Part shown: positions 6,738 to 64,000 of the stretch, in pieces
How the letters are laid out: each line of letters begins with the position of its first letter
How positions within the stretch are numbered: position 1 is the stretch's first letter
Origin: Liopterus haemorrhoidalis
Lineage: Eukaryota > Arthropoda > Insecta > Coleoptera > Dytiscidae
Direction: 5' to 3'
Length of the DNA stretch: 64,000 nt
Assembly: GCA_963971575.1 (NCBI GenBank)
Contig: OZ020619.1
Coordinates: 21,148,813-21,212,812, forward strand
Program-made: the position numbers and the translations under genes
Notes under the pieces: generated by a model
What the model was told of the DNA's origin: nothing
Databases searched by the model: none
What the model saw: the letters and a program-made list of their open reading frames with translations, nothing else

Positions 6738-6740
6738 TTT

Positions 6741-12663: not shown

Positions 12664-14372
12664 TATAAAAATTCTACTTCAACCTTATTATTAGAAAAAA
12701 TCAAAAAATCGTCTACATACAAGGCAACAAAAGTAAACTATTATTATTATTATTATTATCCTGATTTTTAATGTACAAACAAGCCTCATATTTAGACTTT
12801 TTATAACCTAAATCAATCAAAACCTCATCAACCTTTCTATTCCAAGCTCTAGAAGACTGTTTTAAGCCGTAAATAGCCTTCTTTAACTTCAGAACTTTGT
12901 TTTTATTTTCTGATGCTACAAAACCTTTAGGTTGCATCATAAAAACGTTTTCTTTTAAGTCACCATTTAGGAAAGCGGTTGTTACATATAAATGCCTTAT
13001 ATCTAAATCTAATTGTACTGACAAAGCAATCAATAGTCTTAAAGTTGAATGTCTAACAACTGGAGAGAAGGTTTCATCAAAGTCAATTCCTTTTCTTTGT
13101 GTAAAACCTTTGGCCACTAACCTTGCTCTGTATCGCACATTATTGTCACTATCATTTTTTCGTTTAAATACCCACTTGCACTGCACAATCGGTTGATTTT
13201 CTGGAACATCCACCATTTCCCAGGCTTCGTTTTCGTCAAATGATTGTAGTTCATCTAACATCGCCTGTCTCCATTTTTCTTTATCTGGTCTCGACAAAGC
13301 TTCTGTGACGGTAACTGGGTCCTCTAAACCAATTGTGTCAGTACACATATACGTCACATAGTCCTGGAAATATCTTGGTTTGGGCTTCCTTTCTGACTTT
13401 CGTACAGTTACTGGAATTTCTTCAGTACCTTCGAAGACAAAGTCGCTGTCGCTTTCTCTAGTCAGATTGTCTTGATCAAAACTGTTTGTCATAGTTTGCT
13501 CTTCTTTATGCCCAAATTTTTCAATGTTGTCCTTGTCCCCCACTGCAACCCAGCTTTTTTCTTTATCATTTTCCAAATCGGTGTCCAGCCCCGTGGTTAT
13601 CATTATATCCATTTTATTTTCACTGTCCTCCATTATGACAACATCCCTGCTCGTTGTCACATTATTGTTTCTTGGATTGTACAGTCTATAACCTTTTGTA
13701 TTATCACTGTAATCCACTAGGATCATTTTTGTAGATTTCTTATTCCACTTTACTCTTTTTTCTTTTGGAACGTGCACCATTCCCTCACTTCCAAAAATTC
13801 TCAAATGACTTACGTCTGGTTTCTTGCCTGTCCAAAGTTCAAAAGGAGTTTTATCATTTGTTTCTGATGCCACTGATCGATTTCTCAAATACACAGCAGT
13901 ATTTACTGCTTCCGCCCAAAATTTTCTTTCCAGATCTGCATCAAACAGTAAACACCTTGCTTTCTCCACAATGGTACGGTTTAGTCTCTCAGACAAGCCA
14001 TTTTGCTCAGGACTATACGGGTTTGTTGTCTGGTAAATAATTCCTTGCATTTTCAAAAAACTTTCAAATTCTTTGCTACAAAATTCACCTCCATTATCAG
14101 TTCTGAATATTTTGATTTTAGTATTTTTCTGATTTTCAACTATGCTTTTAAAATCTTTAAAACAATTGAAAACGTTATCTTTCGTTTTTAGAAAGTACAC
14201 AAATGCCATACGTGTGTAATCATCTACAAAAAATAAGAAATACTTGGACCCACCTATAGATTTTATATCCATTGGTCCACAAACATCAGCATGAATCACT
14301 TCCAATGCAAAGTCGCCCTGGAGCCCTTGCGTGGAAACGGTAACCTTGTTTGTTTTCCTTCACAACAAACTA
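12664..14372 (-). pseudogene. pol: Copia integrase and reverse transcriptase
   Basis: An open frame from 14305 to 12713 (530 codons) begins inside integrase. Catalytic D7, D70 and E106 are spaced as DD35E. The RT follows with VAKGFTQRKGIDFDETFSPV and AIYGLKQSSRAWN. The RT active site YVDD lies at about 12710-12721 but in another frame, because an (AAT)n tract at 12740-12759 has changed length. The codons between 14372 and 14305, with a C-x2-C pair, complete the integrase zinc region in this frame. A T13 run at 14378-14390 separates it from gag-protease. Confidence 0.88.
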
Positions 14373-15656
14373 CACAATTTTTTTTTTTTTAATGTTAATA
14401 TCATTCTTGCAGCTCATACCATCGATTATGCCATTCTGCATCTTCCGTAGGTCGTTATAATTTATGTGTCCAAATCTGCGGTGCCATACGTCAGCTGTCA
14501 CTTTTGATGACGTTAAAAAACATTTTTGTGGATTTTTGACATTTAATTTATAAACATTATCCACCAAATCTGCTGTAACAACCAATATATTTTCCTTATT
14601 ATAAATTTTACAACCCGTTACAGTAAATTCTACAGTATTCCCATTTTTAATTAACTGGCTTACTGAGAGCAAATTTGTTGCAAGTTCTGGAACATACGAC
14701 ACATTTTTTATGCTGATATCAAACGTCGCATTCTTGACTATGGTTGTGATATTTATATCACCTACACAGCACACCGGTACTTTGGTTTTATTTGCCAACA
14801 CAATTTCTTGAAACTTTGTATTTTTTGACATTGACAGATCTTCTAACCAATTTTTATTTGCAGTCAGGTGAACACTTGTCCCGGAGTCTATGTACCAGTC
14901 ATTTTTATTAAATTCTCCACTCGAAAAAACTGCACTAAAAGCATTTGGTGCCTTTTGTTTATTTTTCATGAGTTTCGGACATTTGCTTTTAAAATGACCT
15001 AATTGTTTACAATTATAACATTGGATTTCTTTCTTGAAATTAGATGAAATGTTTCCAAACTGCTTATTTTTGTGACTGTTGTTTCCATTTATCTTACCAG
15101 CAAACGCACTGCCTGTTGAACGTACATCAACTTCCATATCCATTAACTTAGTTTTAATAGAATCTGCCGTGATGATAATTCCGGAATGTTCAATTACCAT
15201 TATCATCGACGAAAACTTCTCCGGTAACCCTGCAAGAAGCAATGATCCAATCCATTCGTCGTCTATTTTGAACCCTGTTCCTCGTAATTTTTGACCAGTT
15301 TCAACAATTTGATTGATATAATTCGCCATCGAATAACAATTTTCTAAACGGGTAGAAATTAGAGTACGTAGCAAACTGATTCTTCTCGTGAAGCCCGAAT
15401 CGTCATACAATGATTTTAATTTGTCCCAAAGTTCTTTGGTAGACGTCGCACTTCTGATATGAACATATATAGAAGCGTCTATAGTTAAAATCAACTTAGC
15501 TTTGGCTTTGGCGTCCTTATCGATGCTTGCCTCGGTTCCATTGATGCAGTCAGCCAGACCATCAAGTATCAGAAAATTCTCCGCGGCGAATGCCCAATTG
15601 TCGTAATTTTCGCGTCCTTTCAACTTAGGAACATTAGACATGTAATTGACAGCCAT
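14370..15656 (-). CDS. gag: Copia Gag, protease and pre-integrase region
   Basis: 428 codons. The N-terminal Gag domain (LKGRENYDNWAFAAENFL) is typical of Copia. A CCHC zinc knuckle lies at residues 213-226 and the protease active site D-S-G-T at 257-260. The Copia-specific pre-integrase block VWHRRFGHINY is near residue 390. It ends in a run of lysines coded by the A13 tract at 14378-14390, where the frame is lost relative to integrase. The start at 15656 is the first ATG after the primer site. Gag forms the particle; the protease matures it. Confidence 0.9.
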   Translation of the reverse strand: MAVNYMSNVPKLKGRENYDNWAFAAENFLILDGLADCINGTEASIDKDAKAKAKLILTIDASIYVHIRSATSTKELWDKLKSLYDDSGFTRRISLLRTLISTRLENCYSMANYINQIVETGQKLRGTGFKIDDEWIGSLLLAGLPEKFSSMIMVIEHSGIIITADSIKTKLMDMEVDVRSTGSAFAGKINGNNSHKNKQFGNISSNFKKEIQCYNCKQLGHFKSKCPKLMKNKQKAPNAFSAVFSSGEFNKNDWYIDSGTSVHLTANKNWLEDLSMSKNTKFQEIVLANKTKVPVCCVGDINITTIVKNATFDISIKNVSYVPELATNLLSVSQLIKNGNTVEFTVTGCKIYNKENILVVTADLVDNVYKLNVKNPQKCFLTSSKVTADVWHRRFGHINYNDLRKMQNGIIDGMSCKNDINIKKKKIV

Positions 15657-15697
15657 ACTTGTGCCACTCTACACTAAAATAACAGTAAACCGCGAAA

Positions 15698-25640: not shown

Positions 25641-27755
25641 CAGGGCCGCCGAGAGTGGGCCTGCGCCCCGGTTAAATTATAATTCCGGGCCCGGGAAGAA
25701 AGTAGTTCCGTCCCACCCTCTGAAAACGATAATTACAAATCCGATATCAAATAAAAAACTGCGCGTATATAGAAAGTATACTTTATTATTTCTATAATAT
25801 AATATAAAAGATACGTTTACTTGACGTTGTCCACGCGGAAACTACCAATAGAAAGGCCACAAAGGGGCCAAAATTCTGACAACTGATGACAGCTAAATAC
25901 ATAAACAAAGTGAGCAGTCATATCAGGTCTGGCCCGGACCTATAAACACTATTATTTCAATTATTATAATAAAATGAAAACAGTTTGAATAAGTTAAGAG
26001 TGCGCAGGAGAAAAGTTAGTAATAACAAAGTAGATTTTATAAAAAAGTCATTAATTAATTTGCTAATAATAGCAGAGGCCTTCGATTTCTATTTAAACAG
26101 TGTTCTGTATTTATGAACGTTTATTTAATAAACTAGGTTATTACCCATCAACAATGACGGATTGATAATATAAAAATTTCAATTGTTTGTATTTGTATTT
26201 GGTTTTATTTTTTAACGTATCTTAATATCATCGCCGATCAGCGAATCACGGGACAGGATATCACCCATTAGCCAATCACGGGAGAGGGTGTCACCTGTCA
26301 GCCAATCAAGAGACAGGGTGTTCCCAGTTAGCCAATCACGAGAATCTTAGGAAAAATTGACGTCATAATGTTACCGACACTATATACAGACACTTGCCAA
26401 TTGTATCGTTAGATTATTTATTTATGAACTTTTTAAGATTTATATTATTAAAACCAAATATTATTTGAGACGTTAATTTATGCCTACGAAACCTTAGACA
26501 TTTATGTATGTAATTATATTCATAGATTTTTAGAGAATAAATTTGCAAAATATTGTTCATATCGGTCAAAGGATATGACAGTGTCTAGAGTTACTTGTTT
26601 ATGCCTACGAAATTCTAGATATTTCTATACGTTGTTTTATCCGCAGATTCTTAGAGAATAAATCTGCAAAATATTGTTCGGATATAGGATTGTCTGCCAA
26701 TCACGAGATCTTTAGGAAAAATTGATGTTATAATGTTACAGGCACTACATATAGACACTTGCTAATTATATATGTCAGATTTTTAGAAAATAAGTCTAGA
26801 GTTTCTTGTTTATACCTACGAAACCCTGGACATTTCTGCAAAAAATTATAGTTGCAGATTCTTAGAAAATAAATCTGCAAAATATTGTTCCTCTCGGTCA
26901 AATGATATAGCAGTGTCTAGAGTTTCTTGTTTATGCCTACGAAACCCTAGAAATTTCTGTATGTAGTTATTTTCGTAGATTCTTAGAGAAAAAATCTGTA
27001 AAATATTGTTGATATCAATCAAGGAACATAGGAGTGTCTTAGAGTTTTTTGTTTATATCTACGAAACCCTAGACATTTCTATATGTTATTTTATCCGCAG
27101 ATTCTTAGAAAATAAATCTGCAAAATATTTTTCATATCGATCATAGGATATAGGAGTGTCTAGAGTTTCTTGTTTATGCTTACGAAACCCTAGACATTTC
27201 TGTTTGTAATTATTTTGAAAAATTTCTGAAAAATATTGTTGATATCAGTCAAAGAATATACGAATATCTAGAGTTTCTTGTTTATGCTTACGAAACCCTA
27301 GGCATTTCTATATGTTATTTTATACGCAGATTTTTAGAAAATAAATCTGCAAAATATTTTTTATATCGATCATAGGATATAGGAGTGTCTAGAGTTTCTT
27401 GTTTATGCCTACGAAATCCTAGACATTTTTATATGTTATTTTATTTGCAGTTTCTTAGAGAATAAATCTGCAAAATACTGTCATATCGGTAAAATCATAT
27501 AGGAGTATCTAGAGTTTCTTGTTTATGCCTACGAAATCCTGCACATTTCTATATGTGACTATATTCGTAGATTCTTAGAATAAATCTGTAAAATACTTGT
27601 TAATTGAGAAACCTCAAGAGTCCCTAGCTAGCCAATCAGGAGAACCTTAGGAAAAAATCACGTCACAATGTTACCCAGATCACAAACACACACTTGCTAA
27701 TTATATATGTACGATTACTAAATATTTTCCAGTGACAAAAATCTACGGGCCCCCA
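25641..27755. mobile_element. Possible hAT-type element filled with minisatellite
   Basis: The left end cagggccgccgagagtgggc is like the terminus of a widespread hAT family. The opposite end is not clean: ctacgggcccccatgctgat near 27742 resembles the usual inner end but the final bases are missing. The interior is non-coding and holds a 120-bp array. This could also be two unrelated pieces. Confidence 0.4.
26230..27720. repeat. About 120-bp minisatellite, nine to ten units, with a second interspersed unit
   Basis: The block ttgtttatgcctacgaaacc (variants) recurs near 26475, 26597, 26808, 26930, 27051, 27171, 27282, 27401 and 27521, mostly 119-122 bp apart. Each unit has tagagaataaatctgcaaaa. 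A second module, gccaatcacgaga followed by ttaggaaaaattgacgtcat, appears at 26330, 26697 and 27635. The 213-bp gap between 26597 and 26808 is one second-module insertion. Confidence 0.85.
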
Positions 27756-33436: not shown

Positions 33437-33879
33437 CTTAGTTAGTTAGTTAAAATTTTTGGCGCACAGCAAGAGCTATTTGCGCCTAACGCAGCCCATC
33501 TAAATGACTCCACTACATATTAAAAACAATAAATTAAACAATTAATAGATAGATAAAATCAATAAAATTACACATACTCAATAAAAGAAATCTTGCACAG
33601 ACAAACACAAATAAATAAGATAAAAAGTCTGTTCGAAAATTTGAACAGACTTAGGGTGGATGGTAAGAGGCTGTAAAGGTGCCAATTACCATCGAATATC
33701 ACAGTTTAGAAATAGAATACATTAAAATAAGGTGCAAGACTTCACACATAAAACAGTAAGTTCGATTCTCTCAGGAAAAATATCAGCCTGTCCATGAGTA
33801 CTCTGTCGTCACCTAAAGCAACTGACAGGTCATAGCACAGGCCTAGCCTCTCCCTGGTATCCTCGAACTGCGCACATTC

Positions 33880-34900
33880 GATTCAAAAGTGTAAGACAGA
33901 CAAATCTGTGTTACACGTCTCACAGATAGGAGACCCTTCACCTCGAAGAAGGTGCCCATGGATACACCAACAGTGACCTATACGAAGGCGTGTGATGGCG
34001 GTTTCCTCCCTGCGGTTAATCCTGCAGGAAGAACCCCATGGTTTAACATCTCCTTTAATCTGTCCCAACTTAACGTTCTGTATGCTGCTCTACTCATGTT
34101 GCCACATGGCTAAAACAAGATGTTTCAGATGACTCTTTGCGTCATCTGGAAATATGAAACTCACATCAATCATAGGTCTGTGGGAGGCGGCTTTTGCAGC
34201 TACATCAGTCGCTTCGTTGCCTTTAATACCAACGTGTCCCGGTATGCAAAATAGCTCTACCCTCACATTCTGAGCATTCAGATTGTAGAATAGCAACCGG
34301 ATCTTTAGTACAAGAGGATGCACTGGATCTGGATCTTGCTCAGCAGTGTACACACTCGTTATGGAATGCAGACGGTACTGAAACTGTTGGCGTGGATTCA
34401 AAACAACGAACGCACTCCAAACCCTGGTTCCGGATTTTGATCCGTCAGTGAAAATGACAGTATCCTCGAACCTAGTGACCAGTGTTCTTTGTAACTCATG
34501 TTGCTATTCGTTAATGTGAGGTTCACAAGTAGACGCTTCTATGGTGGAAAAGCACACAAAACGAAACTTGTCATTTCGGGCATATTAAAATCAATGTCAC
34601 TCAAAATGTCGAAAGTCCTCAGACCAAAAGGCCTATTGGCTCTTGGTTTTCTGGTATGAATCTCTGTATGCCTATTTTGTAGAATAGGGTCATACGCGGG
34701 ATGATCTGGCTTGGCACTGAGTGCAGCCATATACCGCAGGGATAGAATTTTACGACGATTGTACAGTGACGGCTCACCTGCTTCACACAGCAAGCTTGGT
34801 ATTGGGCTGATGCGAAATGCACCTGTGGCCAATCTAACCCCAGTGTGACGTACAGTGTCAAGAATTCTTATCTCTTGGTGTTTAGCTGACCCATAAGCTA
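33880..34900 (-). pseudogene. I/R1-like LINE RNase H and C-terminal zinc region, deleted
   Basis: Frames 34832-34539 and 34401-34090, then 34068-33883, together match the intact 52706-53910 protein. Compared with it, 32 codons are missing within 34090-34401, and these hold the RNase H Glu and second Asp, so RNase H cannot be active. A further frameshift lies near 34505. The C-terminal C-x2-C (ICETC) zinc block is at about 33925. Confidence 0.82.
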
Positions 34901-42062: not shown

Positions 42063-44150
42063 TTATATATTCATCTGTATTTTACTGAGATGTTCCATTA
42101 GAAGGGCACATGCTGCCGGAGTCGGATGTTGTAGTACCTCTTGTAGTGAAATAGGCGATGGATAGTGGAGCAGCAGGTTTCGATACAGAGAATTACAGGA
42201 TGCATTGTGGTCGGGGCATGAAAGAGATATATGTGTCACATCACCATATCCACCACACGAACATAAAGGTGTTCCGAGTATATTAATTTTATGTAGGTGG
42301 CTATAAGAGTGACAGTGATTAAGTCTAAGACTGGTGACGGTAGAGATGGTTTTCTTGTCAATGGGAAGGTTATGAAACCAGGGTTTAGCTGTGATGTACG
42401 GAAGAAGCGAGTGAAGGTGTGAACCTCGCTGTCGTGCTGTCGTGTCCCATTCTTGCTGCCATTTGGTTCTCAGCGATTGAAGGAGGGGTGGTAGAACATC
42501 TTTATAAAATACTTGGGCATCTGTAGGTTCTTCGGTTAGAGTGGCACCTTTCTTTGCGAGTTGGTCTGCAATTTCATTTCCATGGATGCCACAGTGACTG
42601 GGAATCCATGCCAGCTGGACTTCGTGATTCGCTGAGTTCAGGCTATATATCAGGGTCTTAATGTTTAGAATGGTTTTGTTATAGTTACGTATTCCAGTGT
42701 TGTTTAGTATTTGGAGTGAGGAGAGAGAGTCTGTGAGGATTAATGCCTTGCGGATTTTAAGCTGCGGGATCATGGACAATGCCTGTCTTATAGCTAAAAG
42801 TTCGGCAGACATTATCTGAAGTAACGCAGGGGCTTTCCTGGATACTTTGATGTTCATCGATGGTATGTAAATACCATACCCAGTAGTTCCTAGAGAGGGC
42901 GTTTTGGAAGCATCGGTGTATATATAGGTAAATTCAGAAAATTTCCTATCCAGGGTACTGAGCAGAAGAGCGTTCTTCTCTGATGTGTCCGTTGTTTTGT
43001 CAATTCCTACATTAAAGTGAAGAGGGATTGGTGTTATTTGTGGAGCATAGGGAGTTAAGTAGCAAGGGAGATTATTATGGCATGTAATCCGTCTTATGTG
43101 TGGAGTCAGCTGGTTAAGGGTAGTTAGAGCTAGGGGTTCGCGACACGAGGTAGGGCGCCTTGTTGTATTTTTCAGGTGCAGGAGTTGGTAGAGGCTCAAT
43201 AGAATAACACTGTTTTTGTATGAAGCTTGCTGCAATATAAATTTTGAGGTCAGCCATTTTGCTCGAAGATGTAGAGGGGGTTCCGCAGCTTCCACAAGCA
43301 GGGCGTTGGTTGGTGTGGAACGCATTGCTCCTAAACATATTCTTAGTGCCTGGTACTGTATTTTCTCCAGTCTTGTCCTTCTTTGAGCTGTAAGTGGTGA
43401 CATTACGGAACAGGAGTAGTCGATAATAGACCGCAAAAGACTGCGGTAAATTAGCAGCATTGTTTGTGGGTGGCCACCCCACCAGGTTCTTGACAAAGAA
43501 CGCAGAATATTGAGGATGTTTTGACATTTTTTCGCTATGTAATTTAGATGGATTTGCCAATTAAGTCTGGAGTCCAGGTGTATGCCCAAATAGCAGTATG
43601 ATGGAGTCATACTAATGGGTTGATTATTAAATGTTATATCTGAAGGACAGGCATCAAATGATATTTGTTGGCTAAATATAACAGATTTACTTTTATCTGG
43701 AGACAGGGTAAAATGATGTTCCTCAGTCCATGATTTAATAGATTGCAGAGCGAGATTTAATAGATGTACTGCCAACTGAACGTTTCTGTGTGCCAGATAT
43801 ATAACAATGTCGTCAGCGTATTGTAAATAATGAGCATAGGGGAATATTGAGGAGTAAAGGAGGGATGTATAGATATTAAATAAAATCGGACTCAGTACTG
43901 AGCCCTGTGGCAAACCTTTGTATGAAGATCGTGGACCATATAATTCGTTTTTATATTTAACGTACACATTCTTGTTCACAATTAACTGGAATACTGACCG
44001 TATTATTACAGAAGGCAATTTAATACTGGCGAGTGATTTTAGAAACGTTGGAATGTCCACATTATCAAAGGCACCCTTTAGATCAAGGAAGACTGCAACT
44101 AAGTGCTCTCTTTTAGCAAAGGCTATGTGTATATCTGTAGTGAGCTTCAT
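42063..44150 (-). CDS. LINE ORF2, reverse transcriptase and RNase H part
   Basis: 695 codons. RT motif A (VFLDLKGAFDNVD) is near residue 21, PQGSVLSPILF near 81, the active site YADD at 111-114 and the thumb after that. RNase H starts near residue 410 with T-D-A-S. It continues with the S-A-E-L-L-A-I-R block (Glu), L-T-D-S-L-S-S-L (Asp) and G-N-E-I-A-D-Q-L-A-K (last Asp): all four catalytic acids. A C-terminal C-x-C-x5-H-x4-C-type zinc block (CSCGGYGDVTHISLSC) closes the protein. RNase H in a LINE points to the I/R1/LOA side of the tree. No internal stop. The initiating Met given here is not natural; the frame is the continuation of the endonuclease frame. Confidence 0.9.
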   Translation of the reverse strand: MKLTTDIHIAFAKREHLVAVFLDLKGAFDNVDIPTFLKSLASIKLPSVIIRSVFQLIVNKNVYVKYKNELYGPRSSYKGLPQGSVLSPILFNIYTSLLYSSIFPYAHYLQYADDIVIYLAHRNVQLAVHLLNLALQSIKSWTEEHHFTLSPDKSKSVIFSQQISFDACPSDITFNNQPISMTPSYCYLGIHLDSRLNWQIHLNYIAKKCQNILNILRSLSRTWWGGHPQTMLLIYRSLLRSIIDYSCSVMSPLTAQRRTRLEKIQYQALRICLGAMRSTPTNALLVEAAEPPLHLRAKWLTSKFILQQASYKNSVILLSLYQLLHLKNTTRRPTSCREPLALTTLNQLTPHIRRITCHNNLPCYLTPYAPQITPIPLHFNVGIDKTTDTSEKNALLLSTLDRKFSEFTYIYTDASKTPSLGTTGYGIYIPSMNIKVSRKAPALLQIMSAELLAIRQALSMIPQLKIRKALILTDSLSSLQILNNTGIRNYNKTILNIKTLIYSLNSANHEVQLAWIPSHCGIHGNEIADQLAKKGATLTEEPTDAQVFYKDVLPPLLQSLRTKWQQEWDTTARQRGSHLHSLLPYITAKPWFHNLPIDKKTISTVTSLRLNHCHSYSHLHKINILGTPLCSCGGYGDVTHISLSCPDHNASCNSLYRNLLLHYPSPISLQEVLQHPTPAACALLMEHLSKIQMNI

Positions 44151-45721
44151 TGTGCAATGTTGACAGGATTTGCCTTTCCGAAAACCAAGCTGTTGGAGTC
44201 AAGTCTCAGTTTTAATAAATGTTCCGCTGTTTTAAGTAAACAAGATGAGAGAGCAATTGGGCGATAAGAAGATGGTAGTTCTGGATCTTTTCCTGGCTTA
44301 TGTATAGGCACTATATACGTGTCTCGCCATGCAGGTGGTATTTCATGTCCTAATAATATCATGTTTGTAATGTTCAAGTGCCACTCTTTCATTACGGTTG
44401 GCAGATGTTTTAAGTGAAGATAGGAGATTCCATCAGGTCCAGGCGCCGAATTCTTGACCGTAGTAATAACTGCATTATATTCATACATAGTATAAGGGGA
44501 TGTTAAGAATGGATCATCTGTTTCAGTTAATGGCAAAGATAATTCAGGGCTGACATAAGAAGGTGTGAATGCATTTAAAAATTCTTCTACGCATGTCATT
44601 GGTTTGTTGATGGACGTCAGAGTTGATTTTTTGTAGATCTTGATTTTCTTACACACCTCAGATATAGGAGTTTCTGGATTGAGGGATTGACAGAAATCCT
44701 TGAAGGCCAATTTCTTTTTTTCTTTGAACATACGTTTTGTTCGGGCTATTGCTTGTTGAGCATTTAAAAAGTTGTCTGGTGTAGGTGATTTCTTGTATTC
44801 CGATATAGCTGCTTTTCGTGCCTTTTTAAGATTTCCGCAACATTCGTCCCACCATGGAGTAGGGCAATAAGACTTCTTTTTTTCCGAAATTGGTATTGCG
44901 GCCGCAGAAGATTTATGTATAATGTCACATAGGATCTTGTTTTTTTCTTCACCGTTACAATTGGTGCTACTCATGTTTTCAAAAAGTTGGATACATGTAC
45001 TGTGATATAGTGACCAATCCGCTTTCTTAAGGTTATATGTTGGGAGGTGGTAAGCGGGTTGATTATTATTGCGATGACATGTGCTGATATGATTTTCTGT
45101 TAATAAGGGGAAGTGATCACTGCCATATGTATCGTTCAGGGTGATGCAATTAATGTTAGGGGCAATATCAGCAGTACTCAATGCAAGGTCAACAAAGCTA
45201 TCAGCGTATCCAGGGCGAGATAGTCGTGTCGGTTTTCCATCGTTTAGGATGCAGAGGTTATACAAATCTATAAGATCTTCAATTGTTTTACCTAAGTTGT
45301 CTGTGGTATGACTACCCCAGACAACGTTATGGCCATTGAAGTCGCCACATAGTAAGTATGGGGCTGGCAATTTGTTTATAATTGTTCTCAACTGATTTAC
45401 GGAAATAGTACGGGGAGGAATATAAAATGATGCTACTGTAATGGAATAAACCTTTACAGCTGTTACCTGACATGAAGTGTGTCTACAGTTGAGCGGAATT
45501 TCTGTAAAGTTTATGTCATTGCGTATAAGTAATGCTGATCCTGCATAACCATCAGTTCTATCGTTTCTTATGATATTGTATTCGCTAATACGGCAATGGA
45601 CATGGGGTTTCAGCCAAGTTTCAGACAAGGCTGCCACCTCAATTTTGTCGTCATGTAGTAAACGAAGTAAGTCCGTTTTATTGCTGTGGAGACTTTGGAT
45701 ATTCCACTGACGCACTTGCAT
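44147..45721 (-). CDS. LINE ORF2, endonuclease and RT N-terminal part
   Basis: 524 codons. The AP-type endonuclease fills residues 1-220: W-N-I-Q-S at the start, A-L-S-E-T-W-L near 32, L-C-G-D-F-N-G-H-N near 123 and Y-G-S-D-H-F-P-L near 200. A linker and RT start follow (SAPGPDGISYLHLKHLP, SSYRPIALSSCLLKTAEHL). It would nick the target and start RT priming. A one-base frameshift near 44195-44205 breaks the join with the next frame, where the coding continues as an L-G-F-R-K-G-K-S block. The natural start is uncertain; the first Met lies right at the endonuclease start. Confidence 0.88.
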   Translation of the reverse strand: MQVRQWNIQSLHSNKTDLLRLLHDDKIEVAALSETWLKPHVHCRISEYNIIRNDRTDGYAGSALLIRNDINFTEIPLNCRHTSCQVTAVKVYSITVASFYIPPRTISVNQLRTIINKLPAPYLLCGDFNGHNVVWGSHTTDNLGKTIEDLIDLYNLCILNDGKPTRLSRPGYADSFVDLALSTADIAPNINCITLNDTYGSDHFPLLTENHISTCHRNNNQPAYHLPTYNLKKADWSLYHSTCIQLFENMSSTNCNGEEKNKILCDIIHKSSAAAIPISEKKKSYCPTPWWDECCGNLKKARKAAISEYKKSPTPDNFLNAQQAIARTKRMFKEKKKLAFKDFCQSLNPETPISEVCKKIKIYKKSTLTSINKPMTCVEEFLNAFTPSYVSPELSLPLTETDDPFLTSPYTMYEYNAVITTVKNSAPGPDGISYLHLKHLPTVMKEWHLNITNMILLGHEIPPAWRDTYIVPIHKPGKDPELPSSYRPIALSSCLLKTAEHLLKLRLDSNSLVFGKANPVNIAQ

Positions 45722-45950
45722 TATTACGTATTTGGGTTTGGTGATCGGAATTAACCTGAGAGAGGATGCTATAAAAAAGTGATATTAAGGATTCATTTTG
45801 TGTGTGAGTACGAAGTAAATTAACAAATTTCTTGACGTGTTGTTCCTTCACTCGACTTGAAGTGGAGGGACTTGATATTGCCGTAGGGGTGTTATTATTG
45901 TAAACGGGTGAGCTATACGTGAAAAGATTTCCGTTTTGGGTCAGTAACAA
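45678..45950 (-). pseudogene. LINE ORF1 C-terminal fragment
   Basis: 90 codons ending in a frame that overlaps the ORF2 start by about 40 bases. Ser/Thr/Gln-rich with a VKKFVNLLRTHTQNESLISL helix-like part. Its position and overlap suggest the end of ORF1; no zinc knuckle remains, so the call rests on context. Confidence 0.45.
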
Positions 45951-47928: not shown

Positions 47929-49154
47929 TAGAGATGGGTCGTTCATGAACGAACCGGCTCACTGAGCCGGCTCAGTACACTGACCGAAGTGACACGGTTC
48001 ACCAAATTGAAATGAGCCGGCTCACGGCTCACTGTATAGTTTCAAGTTTCAAGGATACGATTGGTCGGGCGATTGTGAACAGTGACCGGAGTGATCCGGA
48101 TCTGGATCGATGTCATGTTGAACTTCGCGAGAACTTGGCTTGTAATGTATTATCATAAAGTGTATTTTGTCATCAATTTGTAGGGCAGTTTATTTGAAAC
48201 TAATAGGGTTAGTCTGTATTTTCTTACAACCATACTATATAAAAATATTAAAAATATTGCCCAAATCCCAGATGTCCGATTTATAAGGGCAATAAACATC
48301 GCCATAAACTTAACACATCTGGTTTAAAATACAGTAGCTACATAAAGTGAATTGCTTGTTTCAAAAATGTTAGATAAGAGTCGGAGCTAAGCGACGTTCT
48401 ACCTACGACCGGACGACCGGCAACTGACTGACCTGTGTCTCGGGATCATGTTTAAAAGAACCGGCTCTAAGCAAGAGTCGGTTCTAAGCGACGTTCTACC
48501 TCTAAGCTCTAAGCGACGTTCTACAGAACGACCGACCGACCTGTGTCTCGGGATCATGTTTACAAGAACCGGCTCTAAGCAAGAGTCGGTTCTAAGCGAC
48601 GTTCTACCTCTAAGCTCTAAGCGACGTTCTACAGAACGACCAACCGACCTGTGTCTCGGGATCATGTTTACAAGAACCGGCTCTGAGCAAGAGTCGGTTC
48701 TTAGCGACGTTCTACCTCTAAGCTCTAAGCGACGTTCTACAGAACGACCGACCGACCTGTGTCTCGGGATCATGTTTACAAGAACCGGCTCTGAGCAAGA
48801 GTCGGTTCTAAGCGACGTTCTACCTACGACCGAACGACCGACCGACCTGCGTCTCGGGATCATGTTTACAGTTCATATATTGCAAGAATCGGCTCTAAGC
48901 AAGAGCCGGCTGTAAACGACGTTCTACGTACGACCGAACAACCGACCGACCTGTGTCTCGGGATCATATTTACAGTTTATATATTGCAAGAACCGGCTCT
49001 AAGCGACTTTCTACCTACGAACTAACGACCGTCCTGTGTTTCGGAGACATGTTTACTTAACCGGATCACTGAGCCGGATCAATGAACCGGCTCAACAAAC
49101 TGAACGACCTCCACTGATCCGGTTCCGCAAACTGAGCCGAAATTCCCATCTCTA
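47929..49154. mobile_element. hAT-type element with 8-bp target duplication and tandem core
   Basis: 1226 bp; inverted ends TAGAGATGGG... and ...CCCATCTCTA; flanked by gtaagaac on both sides (47921-47928, 49155-49162). Subterminal parts are packed with GAGCCGGCTC palindromes and variants. The core is a 108-bp tandem array. No transposase; a non-autonomous hAT. Confidence 0.9.
48432..49010. repeat. 108-bp tandem array inside the hAT element
   Basis: cctgtgtctcgggatcatgt starts at 48432, 48540, 48648 and 48756 (108 bp apart), then at 48846 and 48950 with shorter units. Because 108 is a multiple of 3, frames of about 155 codons stay open on both strands (48448-48915 plus, 48399-48863 minus); these are not genes. 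Confidence 0.9.
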
Positions 49155-52705: not shown

Positions 52706-53910
52706 ATACCAGCCCAATACCAAGCCTGCTGTGTGAAGCAGGCGAACCGTCACTGTACAATCGTCGTAAAATTCTATCACTGCGGTATATGGCTGCACTC
52801 AGTGCCAAGCCAGATCATCCTGCGTATGACCCTATTCTACAAAATAGGCATACAGAGATTTATGACAGAAAACCAAGAGCCAATAGGCCTTTTGGTTTGA
52901 GGACTTTCGACATTTTGAGTGACATTGATTTTAATATGCCCGAAATGGCCAGTTTCGTTTTGTGTGCTGTTCCACCATGGACGCTACCGCGTCCACTTGT
53001 GAACCTCACATTAACTAGGTTTGATAAAGATACTACGTTGCCTATCGAATACCAACATGAGTTACAAAGAACACTGGTCCCTAGGTTCGAGGATACTGTC
53101 ATTTTTACTGACGGATCAAAATCCGGAACCAGGGTTGGTTGTGCGTTCGTTGTTTTGAATCCACGACAACAGTTTCAGTACCGTCTGCACTCTATAACGA
53201 GTGTGTACACTGCTGAGCTGTATGCTATTTTCAAGGCCCTGTGTTTTGTTTCGTCAGAGCAAAATCGGTCAAGTGTTATCTTGACGGACTCGCTGAGCGC
53301 TCTGAACAGTATCCAAGATCCAGATCCAGTGCATCCTCTTGTACTAAAGATCCGGTTGCTACTCCACAATCTGAATGCTCAGAATGTGAGGGTAGAGCTG
53401 TTTTGGATACCGGGACATGTTGGTATTAAAGGCAACGAAGCGGCAGATGCAGCTGCAAAAGCCGCCTCTTACAGACCTATGATTGATGTGAGTTTTGTTT
53501 TTCCAGATGACGCAAAGAGTCATCTGAAACATCTGGTTTTAGACATGTGGCAACATGAGTGGAGCCGCACACAGAACGTTAAGTTGCGACAGATTAAGGG
53601 AGACGTTAAACCATGGGGTTCTTCCTGCAGGATTAACCGCAGGGAGGAAACCGCCATCACACGCCTCCGTATAGGTCACTGTTGGTGGACCCATGGACAC
53701 CTTCTTAGAGGTGAAGAGTCCCCTATCTGTGAGACGTGTAACACAGATTTGTCTGTGTTACACATTTTAACTGAATGTGTACAGTTCGAGGATGTCAGGG
53801 AGAGGTTAGGCCTGTGTTATGACCTATCAGTTGCTTTAGGTGACGACAGGGTACTCATGGACAGGCTGATACTCTTCCTGAGAGAATCGAACTTATTGTT
53901 TTATGTGTGA
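52706..53910 (+). CDS. LINE ORF2 C-terminal part with complete RNase H
   Basis: About 400 codons open without a stop. Counting from the Met at 52690, which lies in the flank, the RNase H acids are D141 (F-T-D-G-S), E176 (T-A-E-L-Y), D200 (L-T-D-S-L) and D253 (G-N-E-A-A-D-A-A-A-K). The C-terminal zinc region C-x2-C (ICETC) with a downstream H/C pair is near residues 340-360. The RT itself is truncated away. The minus-strand sister copy has lost 32 codons of this domain, so this copy shows what the intact domain looks like. Without RT it cannot move itself. Confidence 0.88.
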
Positions 53911-54215
53911 AGTCTTGCACCTTATTTTAATGTGTTTCTAGTTATTGACTGTGATATTCGATGGTAATTGGCCCCTTTACAGCCTCTTACCATCACCCTG
54001 AGTCTGTTCATATTTTTGAACAGACTTTTTATATTATTTATTTGTGTTTGTCAGTGCAAGATTTCTTTTATTGAGTATGCGTATTTTTTAATGATTTTAT
54101 CTATTTATTTATTGTCGAATATATTGTTTTTAATATTTGGTCTAGTCATTTAAATGGGCTGCGTTAGGCGCAAATAGCCTTTGTTGCTGTGCGCCAAAAA
54201 TTTTAACTAACTAAC
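52706..54215 (+). mobile_element. I/R1-like LINE, 5' truncated, 12-bp target duplication
   Basis: Flanked by aattttttggca at 52694-52705 and 54216-54227. 1510 bp with the RNase H part of ORF2, a 3' UTR and a ttaactaactaac tail. It is the same family as the minus-strand copy at 33437-38008: both 3' ends carry gcgcaaatagc and the gcgccaaaaattttaactaac end. The 5' truncation is normal for LINE insertion. Confidence 0.93.
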
Positions 54216-56296: not shown

Positions 56297-56340
56297 ATGC
56301 AATATACTTTGCAAAGCACTACCTTCCAAGGCCGGGGGCA

Positions 56341-56428
56341 TGTTCGCGCCTTAGAGCCTAATATATTTTACAATGCAATACCTACTATGTTTTCTATGTA
56401 TAATATATTAGGCTCTAAGGCGCGAACA
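56341..56428. repeat. 88-bp perfect hairpin at the BEL/Pao LTR position
   Basis: 27-bp perfect inverted arms (TGTTCGCGCCTTAGAGCC... and its complement) with a 34-bp loop. It directly follows a polypurine tract and has TG...CA ends, so it lies where a 3' LTR should start. Either an unusual mini LTR or an LTR deleted so that its ends fold onto each other. Confidence 0.75.
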
Positions 56429-56910
56429 ATGTTTGATATCTAATAAAAAAGAAAAAGTGTAGTTGGTAGCATACATTATGCACCTATTTACTGAAATTTT
56501 TTAAAAATCTAATAAAGACTTTATTCAAGAATAATACATTTATTGTCACATTTGAGAGATTTTCTTCTTTGTATCTTTTTGCTTAAGGATTAATTTCTTA
56601 AGGATAAACCGAAAACCACGTTTTGTTTGCGGTTTTCCGGTTTCGGTTTTTGCACTGAAAACCGCGGTTTTGCGGTTCGGTTATAACTGTTTCATAAACA
56701 TTACATATAACATTCATCTTTTATTATTAGGATGAATTTAAGAATATAGTTTTATTATTAAGAATTCATTTTTATACATTTGCTGATCTAATAGGCCTTT
56801 CCTTGTTATTTTATTGGTCATAAATGGGATAAATTAATTTGTTTAATTATTTCTAAATATCATCATATAATATATTTTGATTAGATGAGTTACGTCCGTA
56901 TGTTAGTAAT
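56429..56910. other. hAT end and AT-rich spacer
   Basis: Contains the right AAACCG-rich end of the hAT-type element (to about 56695) and then plain AT-rich sequence up to the Penelope repeat. No gene. Confidence 0.5.
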
Positions 56911-57384
56911 TATAGTTGGAGGTAATGGGATTCGGACCAGTCCGAAAATAAAAACAAATTTATTAACTTCGCTAACGTTTCGATTTTTATTTTAAATCTT
57001 CATCAGAGGTACAAAGATATATAGAAATATAGAATTATTCAATGTGTAAGTTTAAATGTATAAAATTATGATAGTGTTCAAAATTAACAAGTCAAGTAGT
57101 TAAAATAAGTATTACAAAATGATCGGAATTTAAAATATAACATAAAATAGATATTAAATAATAAAAACATATCAAACATGAGTTAAAGAATAAAAAACAA
57201 TGTTAAAATTTACAATACCTTAGTTAATAGTCACGATATAAAATAACAATTTTAAAATTTATACAGAACACATCATATTGTCTGGTATTGAACTCAGAGA
57301 TAAGCAATTGAATAAGCCACGTATGAATTTGAAAAAGGGTTTGAGATGGTTGAAACAAGTAAGTAACGCTATCTATTAATAAAT
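56911..57384 (-). repeat. Penelope-type pseudo-LTR, copy a (solo)
   Basis: 474 bp, same orientation and sequence as 58631-59104 with few mismatches. It contains cgctaacgtttcgatttttat, a sequence with an inverted counterpart as usual in Penelope terminal repeats. It ends exactly where the LINE fragment of the left arm begins, with no Penelope ORF of its own, so it looks like a strongly truncated insertion into the LINE. Confidence 0.8.
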
Positions 57385-57385
57385 A

Positions 57386-58066
57386 CCACTCCGCATCTCC
57401 AGTAATACTCCTTTCTCATCTCCCCCCATGCGTACCATCTTCCTTTTTGTTCCTCTCTGGCTCTTTCCTCCCAGCATTCCCTCATTATTCTTTTGTCTGT
57501 TTCTATTCTTACTTTCTCCTCGTACTTAACCGCCCTCCTTCCTGTACCCACTTTCATCTTATCCCTTTTCAGTTCCTCTCTTACAATATACCCTGGTGTT
57601 GTTCTATCTACCCCTAAGATCCATCTCAAATACCTCTACTGTACTCGTTCTACCTTCTCCCATTCCTTCCATCCCCAAATTTCCACCCCATATAGTAGGA
57701 TGTTATTCACCACGGCGTCAAACAACCTCAATCTCCATCTAATATCGTCATTAAACTTCCTCTCTCCTATACTCCACTTTCTTCTTTTCCTTCTTCGCCC
57801 CTTGACTTTTCCATATCCACCCTTTCGGTAATTTTTCTTCCCATAATTCCCGTTCCTTTTCCTCCGTCAACCATGTCTCCGTCAACCCTATTATCTCAAA
57901 TTCCTTCAAATATTCCTAAAATTCTTCATCCTTTCCTTTAATTCCAGCCACATTCCAGATGATTGCCTTTACTCCTTTCTCATCATCGACTAGGGATTTA
58001 TCCAGAGAGAAAGCTCGAAATATTGTTCTGATCATTATGAACTTCTCTTGTGAAGTTGAAGCCATA
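57386..58066 (-). pseudogene. LINE fragment in the left arm
   Basis: Minus strand copy of 62715-63395: a short endonuclease start fused by deletion to the ORF2 C-terminal region (RWILGVDRTTPGYIVREELK). Cut at 57386 by pseudo-LTR a, so the C-terminal part seen in the right arm is missing here. Confidence 0.8.
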
Positions 58067-58630
58067 GTAATTACTTCTTATCGCTGATGAATATAAACAG
58101 GGCAAATATATCATGTAATTCTAGCGGTAAAGTTTGACTTGCAGTATTTACATTAGGTATGAGTTGGATGTCCTAGAATCTATACTAATCAGTCTTGTGG
58201 AAAAGCTAATAATTCCTTCCAAAAAGCACGGAATCTCCTATATTACTATATCGAGGGCTTTAGTCATAAAATAAGCAGAGGGTATACGTTAGCGTTAGGC
58301 GCGTGAGTAAAATTTTGTCACGATCACGCACGCTCATGAAGTCAGGTTCAAAATTACACGCATGCACACGAAATCATAATTTTAAAATTTCACGGACACG
58401 CGTGTTTCGTTACTCACGCGTGAATAGTGATACGCGTGCATTTTTTCACGTTAGAATGGCCAACCCACGTCCCACGCCCGTCCCAAAATGTTGTTAATAA
58501 GAAACGACCGTTGTGTAGGAATGTAAAGAATTATATTTCTTTAATTTTCCTCTCTCCGCGTTACCGGAAAAATGAAGATACACCAGAAGGCGAATAGAAC
58601 ATACATACCAACACTTCCAAAATATATTAT
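58067..58630. other. Spacer with CACG/CGTG-rich block
   Basis: Between LINE fragment and pseudo-LTR. 58300-58470 is full of CACG and CACGCGTG. A 64-codon frame here (58303) is produced by the repeats and differs by 7 codons from its copy at 62263, which argues against a gene. Confidence 0.6.
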
Positions 58631-59104
58631 TATAGTTGAAGGTAATGGGATTCGGACCAGTCAGAAAATAAAAACAAATTTATTAACTTCGCTAACGTTT
58701 CGATTTTTATTTTAAATCTTCATCAGAGCTACAAAGATATATAGAAATATAGAATTATTCAATGTGTAAGTTTAAATGTATAAAATTATGATAGTGTTCA
58801 AAATTAACAAGTCAAGTAGTTAAAATAAGCATTACAAAATGGTCGGAATTTAAAATATAACATAAAATAGATATTAAATAATAAAAACATGTCAAACATG
58901 AGTTAAAGAATAAAAAACAATGTTAAAATTTACAATACCTTAGTTAATAGTCACGATATAAAATAACAATTTTAAAATTAATACAGAACACATCATATTG
59001 TCCGGTATTGAACTCAGAGATAAGCAATTGAATAAGCCACGTATGAATTTGAAAAAGGGTTTGAGATGGTTGAAACAAGTAAGTAACGCTATCTATTAAT
59101 AAAT
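58631..59104 (-). repeat. Penelope-type pseudo-LTR, copy b
   Basis: 474 bp directly downstream (3') of the minus-strand Penelope ORF; near-identical to copy a (direct) and copy c at 61656-62130 (inverted). Confidence 0.85.
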
Positions 59105-59137
59105 TAGAATTTGATTATTAGGTGAAATATGTTAGAT

Positions 59138-60556
59138 TTAGAATTTTTTTAATATATTACAATAGATGGCGCTTATATTATCACAGTCGGTTTTAAAGTT
59201 AACTAATTTAGGGTTCTGAATTATATGTATGCTCTCAGTAATCAACCTTTTACTGAGATTGTCTACTTTATCTAAGATTTTAGTTTGTTCAAAATTAAAA
59301 TTGTGTTTAGTGGTGAAGAAATGGGTACTGAGTGCCGTGTTTTCTTTTTTATTTTTAAATTTATCCTGACAGCTATTTTTATGTTGATATACTCGGTTTT
59401 TAAGATATTGTTTGGTCTGTCCAACATAGCCTAAATCACAATCTCCACAAGGAATGTGATAGACTACTGACGACATTTTATTAAATTCAGTAGGTTGTTT
59501 AATTTTTGAGTGGAGTTGATTAATAGTTTTAAGATTATAGAAAGCTAATTTTATATTATAGGGTTTAAAAAGTTTAGCAATTTTAAATGAAATATTTTTA
59601 ATGTGTGGAAATTTTAAATACGAACAATCAGTGATGATATCTGGAAGTGAATTATTATTGGTGGGATTATTGGGATTGTTATAAAAAATTCTATTAATGA
59701 TATTTCTAGGGTAGTTATGAATAATAAGATTGTCAGTGGCTTTTTTAAAATTTTCCCTATGGAATTTAGGGTCACTCAAACTGAGTATTTTATGTTTACA
59801 TGATTTTATAATGGCAATTTTTTGTTTATATGGATGTTCTGATAAGAAATTTAAAGTACGTCCTGAACTTGAGGGTTTAGTATACATATTAGTAGATAAG
59901 GTGCCATTAGAATTACGTATTAATAGAATGTCGAGAAAAGGGATAGTGTTATCATTTTCAGTTTCTATAGTAAATTGTAATTTGTTGTGATAAGAGTTAA
60001 AAATAGAAAGTGTAGTATCTACTTGATCTGAAGGTATGGCTAAAATAGTATCATCTACATAATATTTAATGAATCGTAAATGAAAAGTGAATTTTTTACT
60101 GACGGTATTAATGAGTTCATTTACCACTAAATTAGCTAATACAGGTGATGAAGGAGCACCCATTGCTGTACCGAACAATTGTTGGTAGTATTTATTATTG
60201 AATCACCACTATCAAACAGATATTTTATAATAGTGATAAATGAATCATAAGATAGGTTAGTATATGCTGAAATAGTATCCCATTCTTTATGTATGATAGC
60301 AATGACAAGTTCTTGTGGAATGTTGGTAAATAGTGATATAACATCTAACGATATAAGTATATAATCGTTAGGAAGGACGATATTTTTTGTGAAATTAACG
60401 AATTCATAGGAGTTTTTTATATTGTAGTGGAAAGTAGTAACTACCTTATCTAAAATATCATTAATAAAAGAAGCTAACTTGTAGGAAGGTGACATTATAC
60501 AGGAAACAATAGGTCTTAAGGTAGGTAATAGGTCAATAGGTCTTAACTTATTTCGT
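59138..60556 (-). pseudogene. Penelope-like RT with GIY-YIG endonuclease, left copy
   Basis: The main frame 60178-59138 has 346 codons. RT motifs G-T-A-M-G-A-P-S-S-P near residue 3 and the active site YVDD at 40-43 are followed by a linker. A GIY-YIG endonuclease (V-V-Y-H-I-P-C-G-D-C ... L-G-Y-V-G-Q-T) follows at about 235-265, with R and E in the usual later positions. Upstream, 60495-60136 codes in another frame for the RT N-part (an I-L-I-S-L-D-V-I-S-L-F-T-N-I-P motif A), and the frame is lost near 60203, next to the arm border. RT joined to GIY-YIG defines Penelope-like elements. The N-terminus is cut at 60556, where the opposite copy starts. Confidence 0.92.
60204..60556 (-). other. 353-bp spacer of the inverted duplication
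   Basis: Present once only. It codes for the RT N-terminal part of the left Penelope copy (S-P-S-Y-K-L-A-S-F-I, then motif A) and has no counterpart on the right arm, which begins abruptly at 60557. It prevents the arms from touching, so a cruciform would have a 353-base loop. Confidence 0.88.
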
Positions 60557-61622
60557 ATTCAATAATAAATACTACCAACAATTGTTCGGTACAGCAATGG
60601 GTGCTCCTTCATCACCTGTATTAGCTAATTTAGTGGTAAATGAACTCATTAATACCGTCAGTAAAAAATTACCTTTTCATTTATGATTCATTAAATATTA
60701 TGTAGATGATACTATTTTAGCCATACCTTCAGATCAAGTAGATACTACACTTTCTATTTTTAACTCTTATCACAACAAATTACAATTTACTATAGAAACT
60801 GAAAATGATAACACTATCCCTTTTCTCGACATTCTATTAATACGTAATTCTAATGGCACCTTATCTACTAATATGTATACTAAACCCTCAAGTTCAGGAC
60901 GTACTTTAAATTTCTTATCAGAACATCCATATAAACAAAAAATTGCCATTATAAAATCATGTAAACATAAAATACTCAGTTTGAGTGACCCTAAATTCCA
61001 TAGGGAAAATTTTAAAAAAGCCACTGACAATCTTATTATTCATAACTACCCTAGAAATATCATTAATAGAATTTTTTATAACAATCCCAATAATCCCACC
61101 AATAATAATTCACTTCCAGATATCATCACTGATTGTTCGTATTTAAAATTTCCACACATTAAAAATATTTCATTTAAAATTGCTAAACTTTTTAAACCCT
61201 ATAATATAAAATTAGCTTTCTATAATCTTAAAACTATTAATCAACTCCACTCAAAAATTAAACAACCTACTGAATTTAATAAAATGTCGTCAGTAGTCTA
61301 TCACATTCCTTGTGGAGATTGTGATTTAGGCTATGTTGGACAGACCAAACAATATCTTAAAAACCGAGTATATCAACATAAAAATAGCTGTCAGGATAAA
61401 TTTAAAAATAAAAAAGAAAACACGGCACTCAGTACCCATTTCTTCACCACTAAACACAATTTTAATTTTGAACAAACTAAAATCTTAGATAAAGTAGACA
61501 ATCTCAGTAAAAGGTTGATTACTGAGAGCATACATATAATTCAGAACCCTAAATTAGTTAACTTTAAAACCGACTGTGATAATATAAGCGCCATCTATTG
61601 TAATATATTAAAAAAATTCTAA
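60557..61622 (+). pseudogene. Penelope-like RT with GIY-YIG endonuclease, right copy
   Basis: Same protein as the left copy. It has a G-T-A-M-G-A-P block near 60590 and the active site Y-V-D-D near 60698-60709. A TGA at about 60683-60685, absent from the left copy, stops the frame before the active site. From 60873 the frame is open to 61622 (249 codons) and contains the whole GIY-YIG domain. The RT N-part is missing. GIY-YIG would nick target DNA for insertion. Confidence 0.9.
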
Positions 61623-61655
61623 ATCTAACATATTTCACCTAATAATCAAATTCTA

Positions 61656-62130
61656 ATTTATTAATAGATAGCGTTACTTACTTGTTTCAACCATCTCAAA
61701 CCCTTTTTCAAATTCATACGTGGCTTATTCAATTGCTTATCTCTGAGTTCAATATCGGACAATATGATGTGTTCTGTATTAATTTTAAAATTGTTATTTT
61801 ATATCGTGACTATTAACTAAGGTATTGTAAATTTTAACATTGTTTTTTATTCTTTAACTCATGTTTGACATGTTTTTATTATTTAATATCTATTTTATGT
61901 TATATTTTAAATTCCGACCATTTTGTAATGCTTATTTTAACTACTTGACTTGTTAATTTTGAACACTATCATAATTTTATACATTTAAACTTACACATTG
62001 AATAATTCTATATTTCTATATATCTTTGTAGCTCTGATGAAGATTTAAAATAAAAATCGAAACGTTAGCGAAGTTAATAAATTTGTTTTTATTTTCTGAC
62101 TGGTCCGAATCCCATTACCTTCAACTATAA
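61656..62130 (+). repeat. Penelope-type pseudo-LTR, copy c
   Basis: Reverse complement of copies a and b; it lies 3' of the right Penelope gene, so each arm has the same gene-to-repeat order. Confidence 0.85.
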
Positions 62131-62714
62131 TAATATATTTTGGAAGTGTTGGTATGTATGTTCTATTCGCCTTCTGGTGTATCTTCATTTTTCCGGTAAC
62201 GCGGAGAGAGGAAAATTAAAGAAATATAATTCTTTACATTCCTACACAACGGTCGTTTCTTATTAACAACATTTTGGGACGGGCGTGGGACGTGGGTTGG
62301 CCATTCTAACGTGAAAAAATGCACGCGTATCACTATTCACGCGTGAGTAACGAAACACGCGTGTCCGTGAAGCACGCGTGCGTGTCCGTGAAATTTTAAA
62401 ATTATGATTTCGTGTGCATGCGTGTAATTTTGAACCTGACTTCATGAGCGTGCGTGATCGTGACAAAATTTTACTCACGCGCCTAACACTAACGTATACC
62501 CTCTGCTTATTTTATGACTAAAGCCCTCGATATAGTAATATAGGAGATTCCGTGCTTTTTGGAAGGAATTATTAGCTTTTCCACAAGACTGATTAGTATA
62601 GATTCTAGGACATCCAACTCATACCTAATGTAAATACTGCAAGTCAAACTTTACCGCTAGAATTACATGATATATTTGCCCTGTTTATATTCATCAGCGA
62701 TAAGAAGTAATTAC
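62131..62714. other. Spacer with CACG/CGTG-rich block, right arm
   Basis: Reverse complement of 58067-58630 with an extra 21 bp (a second cgtgtccgtga unit near 62370-62390). No gene. Confidence 0.6.
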
Positions 62715-63838
62715 TATGGCTTCAACTTCACAAGAGAAGTTCATAATGATCAGAACAATATTTCGAGCTTTCTCTCTGGATAAATCCCTAGTCGATGATG
62801 AGAAAGGAGTAAAGGCAATCATCTGGAATGTGGCTGGAATTAAAGGAAAGGATGAAGAATTTTAGGAATATTTGAAGGAATTTGAGATAATAGGGTTGAC
62901 GGAGACATGGTTGACGGAGGAAAAGGAACGGGAATTATGGGAAGAAAAATTACCGAAAGGGTGGATATGGAAAAGTCAAGGGGCGAAGAAGGAAAAGAAG
63001 AAAGTGGAGTATAGGAGAGAGGAAGTTTAATGACGATATTAGATGGAGATTGAGGTTGTTTGACGCCGTGGTGAATAACATCCTACTATATGGGGTGGAA
63101 ATTTGGGGATGGAAGGAATGGGAGAAGGTAGAACGAGTACAGTAGAGGTATTTGAGATGGATCTTAGGGGTAGATAGAACAACACCAGGGTATATTGTAA
63201 GAGAGGAACTGAAAAGGGATAAGATGAAAGTGGGTACAGGAAGGAGGGCGGTTAAGTACGAGGAGAAAGTAAGAATAGAAACAGACAAAAGAATAATGAG
63301 GGAATGCTGGGAGGAAAGAGCCAGAGAGGAACAAAAAGGAAGATGGTACGCATGGGGGGAGATGAGAAAGGAGTATTACTGGAGATGCGGAGTGGATGCA
63401 GCAGAGGTGGAAAGGAGAAGAAAAGACGGGATAAGCGTGATTGAGGAGTTGTGGAGGAGGGATAAGGAAGTGGGGGAGCAAGAAAGGACATTCATAATAG
63501 ACAAATCAAGGAGCTCAGGGAGATATAAGGAGGTCAGAATTATAGGGGTACCAAGCTACTTGAAGGGAGAAAGAGGAAGGTCAGGAGGGAGAGTTAGGAG
63601 GATTGCGAGGCTAAGGTGCGGGAATGAAGAGAGGGGAAATAGATACTGGAGGAAACATGAGGATAAGATGTGCAGGATGTGCGGGGAGGAGGAAGAAGAT
63701 ATAGAGAACCTCGCGAAGAGGTGTAGAGAGATGACAGTATGGTCGGGGAGCACATTAGACCTGTTGCACGAAGATGGAAGGGGGGAGAGCTGGGCGAAGG
63801 AATTAGAGGCAAGAAGGATTGAGATCGGGGAAGGATAA
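62715..63838 (+). pseudogene. Internally deleted LINE: endonuclease start fused to ORF2 end
   Basis: 62716-63030 codes for an endonuclease N-terminus (A-I-I-W-N-V-A-G-I-K, then I-I-G-L-T-E-T-W-L), with a TAG at 62863-62865. Near 63020 it jumps to the thumb of an RT (L-L-Y-G-V-E-I-W-G-W) and, after a stop at 63144, an open frame of 228 codons (63152-63838). This is Lys/Glu/Arg-rich and has a zinc-type C-x2-C (C-R-M-C-G) and a later Cys near 63715. This highly charged C-terminal region is familiar from non-LTR elements of insects. The RT catalytic core is entirely lost. Confidence 0.78.
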
Positions 63839-64000
63839 CAGGAAGGGGTAAAGGAAGGAAGGAAGAGGCCTGGTGGGAGGCAGAAGGCGAGAAATGGAAG
63901 GAAGGAAGGGGGCTGAGGTCACCTGGAAATGGGGAGGAAGGGTGAAGAAATGGTTGGAAGGAAAAAGAATGGAATCAAATAAATTAAAGATGGGCGAGAG
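63839..64000 (+). other. LINE 3' region, runs off the window
   Basis: Very purine-rich (ggaagg runs) continuation after the LINE stop, with aaataaattaaaga near 63978. The element's end is beyond the window. Confidence 0.45.

Follow-up and report, generated by a model that had tools for sequence, protein, structure and literature searches.

A local inverted duplication inside a compound Penelope insertion of Liopterus haemorrhoidalis, with fold-back repair as a possible origin

Two Penelope-like copies lie head to head in the 64,000-nucleotide stretch of Liopterus haemorrhoidalis DNA analysed here (the window), and the inverted arms that contain them run on into DNA that is not Penelope. The question raised by this locus is how an element and its neighbouring sequence came to be copied together in inverted orientation. 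The left arm (57386-60203; 2,818 bp) and the right arm (60557-63395; 2,839 bp) could be aligned end to end as reverse complements. They are separated by 5 base substitutions and by one indel of 21 bp (62372-62392 in the right arm, missing from the left), which gives an identity of 99.08% with the indel counted. An earlier sequence-only reading had given exactly these coordinates and an identity of about 99% by eye, to which the alignment and the count of differences now put figures. The arms pass the Penelope 3' end by 1,264 bp, into flanking DNA and a LINE, and this non-Penelope part differs between them by one substitution and one indel. The core of that reading, a segmental inverted duplication that captured the neighbours of the element, is thereby confirmed. 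The joint of flank and Penelope sequence was found in the window only, among the scored genome matches (best 40 of 6490 candidates), and the runner-up inverted match in a self-comparison of the window was 903 bp at 92% (33441-34338 against 53314-54215). A third Penelope piece, C, had been overlooked and lies flush with the left arm. The features of the locus are as follows.

56869-56879, plus strand: left copy of the target duplication, AATATATTTTG; the last 3 nt possibly belong to the tail
56880-56908, minus strand: 3' tail of Penelope piece C; other compound insertions also have a tail at one end
56909-57384, minus strand: Penelope piece C, which is the 476-bp 3' part (pseudo-LTR) and forms the left end of the compound insertion
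57385, no strand: single base at the junction of C and the inverted LINE, matching neither side
57386-58628, minus strand: about 350 bp and a LINE fragment from the right flank, copied in inverted orientation and lying within the insertion
58629-60521, minus strand: Penelope copy A, with part of the reverse transcriptase (RT), GIY-YIG and a tail-less 3' end; 7-nt deletion at 60203/60204
60522-60547 (about 26 nt), no strand: head-to-head filler between A and B, with a copied 12-13-mer
60548-62131, plus strand: Penelope copy B, 5'-truncated, with one stop codon, tail-less right end of the compound insertion
62132-62142, plus strand: right copy of the target duplication, AATATATTTTG
62132-63395, plus strand: original right flank, source of the copy in the left arm; its LINE frame continues to 63838

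The surroundings are rich in transposable elements, with many long retroelement-like frames in 1-56000 (for example 2040-8747, 12713-15668 and 42063-45784), and self-comparison of the window also gave two diverged internal-repeat blocks (26331-27716 and 48376-49056). Close to the insertion, an 88-bp near-perfect inverted repeat (56341-56428) lies directly downstream of a frame that we take to be the end of a BEL/Pao-like element; Rfam matches of this repeat to miRNA families were weak and below gathering scores.

The Penelope read-through matched 310 proteins at E <= 0.001 (best 3.5e-133, 50% identity over 97%), and by these homologues it encodes a Penelope-type reverse transcriptase; the Pfam RVT_1 score of 27.2 bits lies under the cut-off of 29.6 for that family. 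A C-terminal GIY-YIG endonuclease domain was recognized by PF01541 at 26.0 and 26.3 bits (cut-off 22.6). The relatives named in protein searches are insects, and no relative was found among phage records and viral contigs. Hammerhead ribozymes have been reported in some pseudo-LTRs, and no Rfam hammerhead match at E <= 1 was obtained in 56300-64000; a CTGATGA...GAAAC string in the Penelope 3' region (62009-62064, with the same segment in A and C) does recall a hammerhead core. A scan of the genome (1.02 Gb in 91 contigs) gave at least 52 matches to the left arm, with the best 40 of 6490 candidates scored. Twenty stretches were fetched, one of which (L009) is only the right continuation of the window, and two more were added. 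Tandem units occur in three of the loci (L014, L023 and L024).

The inner edges of the arms required revision. The coordinate 60203 is exact for the alignment but is not the true end of homology, as A carries a private, frameshifting 7-nt deletion there: the 7 nt are present in 27 of 27 other aligned copies and in L041. B in turn continues as Penelope sequence inward to about 60548. On the evidence of the genome copies, these two facts rule out 60203/60557 as the meeting point of two junctions. The sequence-only reading took the spacer to be exactly the RT N-part missing from one copy; its 353 bp do hold the N-part that B lacks, as part of A (60204-60521), but also the roughly 26-nt filler (60522-60547) and some 9 nt of B. 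Of 115 usable homologous proteins, 105 have 18 residues and 10 have 19 where 15 stand in the window (5 of 120 were dropped for flanks that were too short). A and B are broken, truncated copies, and we propose no host function for them.

Several differences between the arms could be given a direction. The stop codon of B (60684) is derived in B, with 27 of 27 other pieces agreeing with A, and so is the change at 61755, where 38 of 38 share the state of A. At 60088-60089 it is A that has the derived state, a two-base change: B's state was seen in 27 of 27 other pieces and the leucine that B encodes there in 82 of 115 protein homologues. At all three isolated A-B substitutions a CpG in A stands against a TpG or CpA in B; the flank substitution could have arisen in either direction.

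What lies beneath the duplication is an insertion of a familiar form. We compared the locus with 14 others that have an outward 3' end on both sides; L023, a cut array that runs on into L024, was set apart from the 13 complete ones, and L011, L017, L020, L024, L027 and L028 (single, cut or one-sided) and L041 were omitted. All 13 complete insertions have a tail of about 32 nt at exactly one end and a target duplication of 10-14 bp; L023 has only 6 bp. In the window, C carries the tail, B is tail-less, and the 11-bp target duplication AATATATTTTG stands on either side of C...B. A first test for a target duplication, in which the tail had not been recognized, gave a best match of 6 bp (P 0.48) and is superseded by the 11 bp found with the tail. 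Four bases (p1686, p1687, p1716 and p1782, counted in the sense direction of A from 60556) are common to C, A and B and occur in none of 39-40 other aligned pieces. The tail rule, the target duplication and these shared bases together indicate a single compound insertion that has C at one end and B at the other. The earlier statement that the locus is 'not just two head-to-head insertions' is thus right in that flank was copied as well, but an ordinary compound Penelope insertion does underlie it.

Against this background the window departs from the other loci in one respect. Among L010-L028, inverted repetition reached at most 39 bp (the tail) beyond the outer element ends in 12 of 12 complete loci, as against 1,264 bp in the window; in the cut array L023 it continues for 411 bp after the last copy listed, up to where the stretch ends, and matches elsewhere in that array. 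Within the 14 other insertions, 11 have no uncovered stretch of at least 20 nt, L013 and L014 have fillers of 34 and 30 nt, and L012 has a 1,242-bp insert inside a copy. The window insertion has 1,245 bp uncovered, and these repeat the insertion's own right flank in inverted orientation. The LINE frame is uninterrupted through 63395 as far as 63838, so we take the right side as the original and the left copy as derived; 63395 is also spanned by four of five aligned LINE homologues. The LINE part at 63004-63395 recurs in at least 38 other genome places and as one short piece (best 40 of 4268 candidates scored). The joint between C and the inverted flank, at 57385, has no microhomology.

The duplication also looks younger than the insertion, unless the arms have been homogenized. 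C and A differ at 8 of 476 sites and A and B at 5 of 2,818 (Fisher p = 1.2e-4), and within the same 476 bp C and B differ at 9 sites and A and B at 1 (p = 0.02). Seven sites set C alone apart from the 38-42 other pieces aligned there. A base at p1666 is common to A and B but absent from C and from 39 of 39 others, a pattern that a change in B after insertion, later copied into A, would produce. One feature of these counts is unexplained: C has 7 private changes in 476 bp and the B side 4 in 1,575 (p = 0.005), a difference in rate that is not significant inside the 476 bp alone (7 against 2, p = 0.18).

The best explanation for these data is that a canonical compound Penelope insertion was already in place and that fold-back repair of a break then made a local inverted duplication within it; we consider it evenly balanced whether this is what happened. 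That C and B have the features of insertion ends and that the inverted flank of B lies between C and A is observed; the break-repair mechanism we infer. A double-strand break would have fallen within the original left-hand (minus) Penelope copy, leaving C on the left fragment. On the right fragment, the resected 3' strand would have folded back via the head-to-head inverted repeat, with the RT N-part and filler, the present-day spacer, as the loop. It would then have primed on B and copied the 3' half of B and 1,264 bp of flank up to 63395, and end joining with one extra base would have attached the new end to C. Breaks near natural inverted repeats in yeast lead to inverted duplications through such foldback priming (PMC10622511), and in humans foldback inverted duplication has been inferred (PMC3907307). 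A single repair event of this kind would explain the third pseudo-LTR at the arm edge, the overrun of the arms, the flank copy and the tail-less 3' end of A, which is expected of a copy made from B. One trait of fold-back, long near-identical inverted arms around a single-copy loop, is present at the locus. A Penelope head-to-head repeat is there too, and before the event it may have offered the inverted homology at the loop base that could prime synthesis. No terminal deletion, dicentric or translocation product is seen here: the duplication is interstitial and the right flank continues to at least 63838. A simple fold-back of one chromosome end with unchanged outer flanks is rejected, as it needs LINE sequence to the left of 57386, where C sits.

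If A and B still meet at their original junction, a single break in the left copy suffices for fold-back, and the filler between them bears on this. It holds a 12-13-mer copied from its neighbourhood (0 of 500 shuffles), and the fillers at L013:3853-3886 and L014:4440-4469 likewise repeat an adjacent 12-13-mer (0 of 500 shuffles each). The A/B filler is of the same templated kind, so A/B is most simply the original head-to-head junction, and it is possible that such fillers are a signature of how Penelope 5' ends get joined. At another head-to-head junction, L012:3785-3809, one copy breaks off near p336 and its partner extends beyond p36; the p336 cut lies within about 10-15 nt of the 5' end of B in the window, and this region is perhaps a preferred site of truncation.

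The distribution of A-B differences sets a further demand on fold-back. Three of the six difference events fall in 140 bp near the loop (binomial P = 0.002, or 0.02 when the deletion is left out), which would fit a loop-side part that alone predates the event; this 140-bp interval was chosen post hoc, and 2273 of 20000 shuffles had an equally tight cluster somewhere. Inside and outside p1453, the density of differences showed no significant contrast (p = 0.39 or 0.22). Had the left copy been kept to p1452, the C-B rate would predict about 21 A-B differences, against at most 4 observed, and fold-back therefore requires that the right end was trimmed to near the loop or that the arms were homogenized by conversion.

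The main rival to fold-back is template switching or fusion of sister ends, which we regard as rather unlikely. Here the original would have been C, ending at p1453, head to head with a longer B. Either the broken left end used another template to copy B and its flank in inverted orientation, or two sister ends on the right-hand side fused to each other and the resulting bridge broke within the LINE; the new end would then have been attached, through templated filler, to a B that had lost about 300 bp by trimming. The uniformly low A-B divergence and the survival of the N-part beside A only are both accounted for, and templated fillers also mark end joining by Drosophila polymerase theta (PMC2895639). 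Such a history needs two switches or a second break, however, and the like fillers at L013 and L014 stand at head-to-head junctions without any capture of flank. Template switching or fold-back repair, the two origins offered by the sequence-only reading, remain the best class of mechanism.

That reading had also allowed for an assembly artefact, which we now disfavour and hold to be improbable. A palindromic or chimeric read, or two alleles falsely joined, could have given such a structure: inverted chimeras are common products of whole-genome amplification (PMC6218980), and a divergence of 0.18% could be allelic. A palindromic read is made unlikely, however, by the private changes on both sides (two derived in B, one in A), and the loop is asymmetric and holds filler. 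The outer junction is with C, which tail and target duplication assign to the same insertion, and the 1.02 Gb lie in just 91 contigs, tens of megabases long.

Still less probable is a one-step aberrant retrotransposition, in which reverse transcription or second-strand synthesis jumped to the target flank and trapped it between direct pseudo-LTRs. There are precedents in its favour, as in Adineta vaga host DNA captured by Penelope elements lies between direct pseudo-LTRs, next to an inverted one (PMC3846280), and in vitro both strands of the target are extended by a Penelope protein (PMC11167929). The age difference between A/B and the insertion weighs against it, as A and B are much closer than C and A and only they share the base at p1666, and it is from the flank of the insertion itself that the DNA was captured. 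That the locus consists of two or three independent insertions of Penelope, head to head by chance, is very improbable: copies do occur in both orientations in 15 of the 19 loci L010-L028, which were picked from the best matches, but the arms share the 1,264 bp of nearly unchanged flank and a flank-plus-Penelope joint confined to the window among the 40 scored matches.

Host DNA within Penelope insertions has been interpreted as captured at the time of retrotransposition (PMC3846280). In the window the captured DNA is the insertion's own flank and seemingly younger than the insertion, which points to repair synthesis. We tentatively suggest, as a possibility that falls short of probable, that compound Penelope insertions act as ready-made fold-back sites at which break repair primes on itself, makes an inverted copy of an element end with at least 1 kb of flank, and reseals the chromosome in place. 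If so, Penelope would seed local palindromes from neighbouring host DNA through DNA repair and not through retrotransposition, and such palindromes would be possible sources of double-stranded RNA. A search of open-licence titles and abstract openings turned up no paper in which a Penelope insertion contains its own flank in inverted form, and we make no claim that such a case is unreported.

Among the closest known systems, compound insertions with inverted pseudo-LTRs, such as Pen2a and others of Adineta vaga (PMC3846280), share with the locus a head-to-head centre, element 3' ends on both outer sides, a short target duplication and a short tail that one end may carry; unlike them, the window insertion has its own right flank inverted between C and A. 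The Pen1 spacers and the Pen3a NRPS insertion (PMC3846280) also have about 1 kb or more of host DNA at or between direct pseudo-LTRs, and the NRPS case has an inverted pseudo-LTR, as here. Their capture was read as a step in retrotransposition, whereas the DNA in the window is adjacent flank and seemingly younger than the insertion. The foldback duplications of yeast (PMC10622511) and human (PMC3907307) share the near-identical arms, single-copy loop and overrun into flank; they end dicentric, translocated or telomere-capped, whereas the present case is small and resealed in place. Alternative end joining by Drosophila polymerase theta similarly copies filler from adjacent sequence (PMC2895639), but here the Penelope reverse transcriptase might be the maker of the filler. 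The event looks real; both the rearrangement and the element are of known kinds, with the twist that the fold-back site was probably supplied by the element's own architecture.
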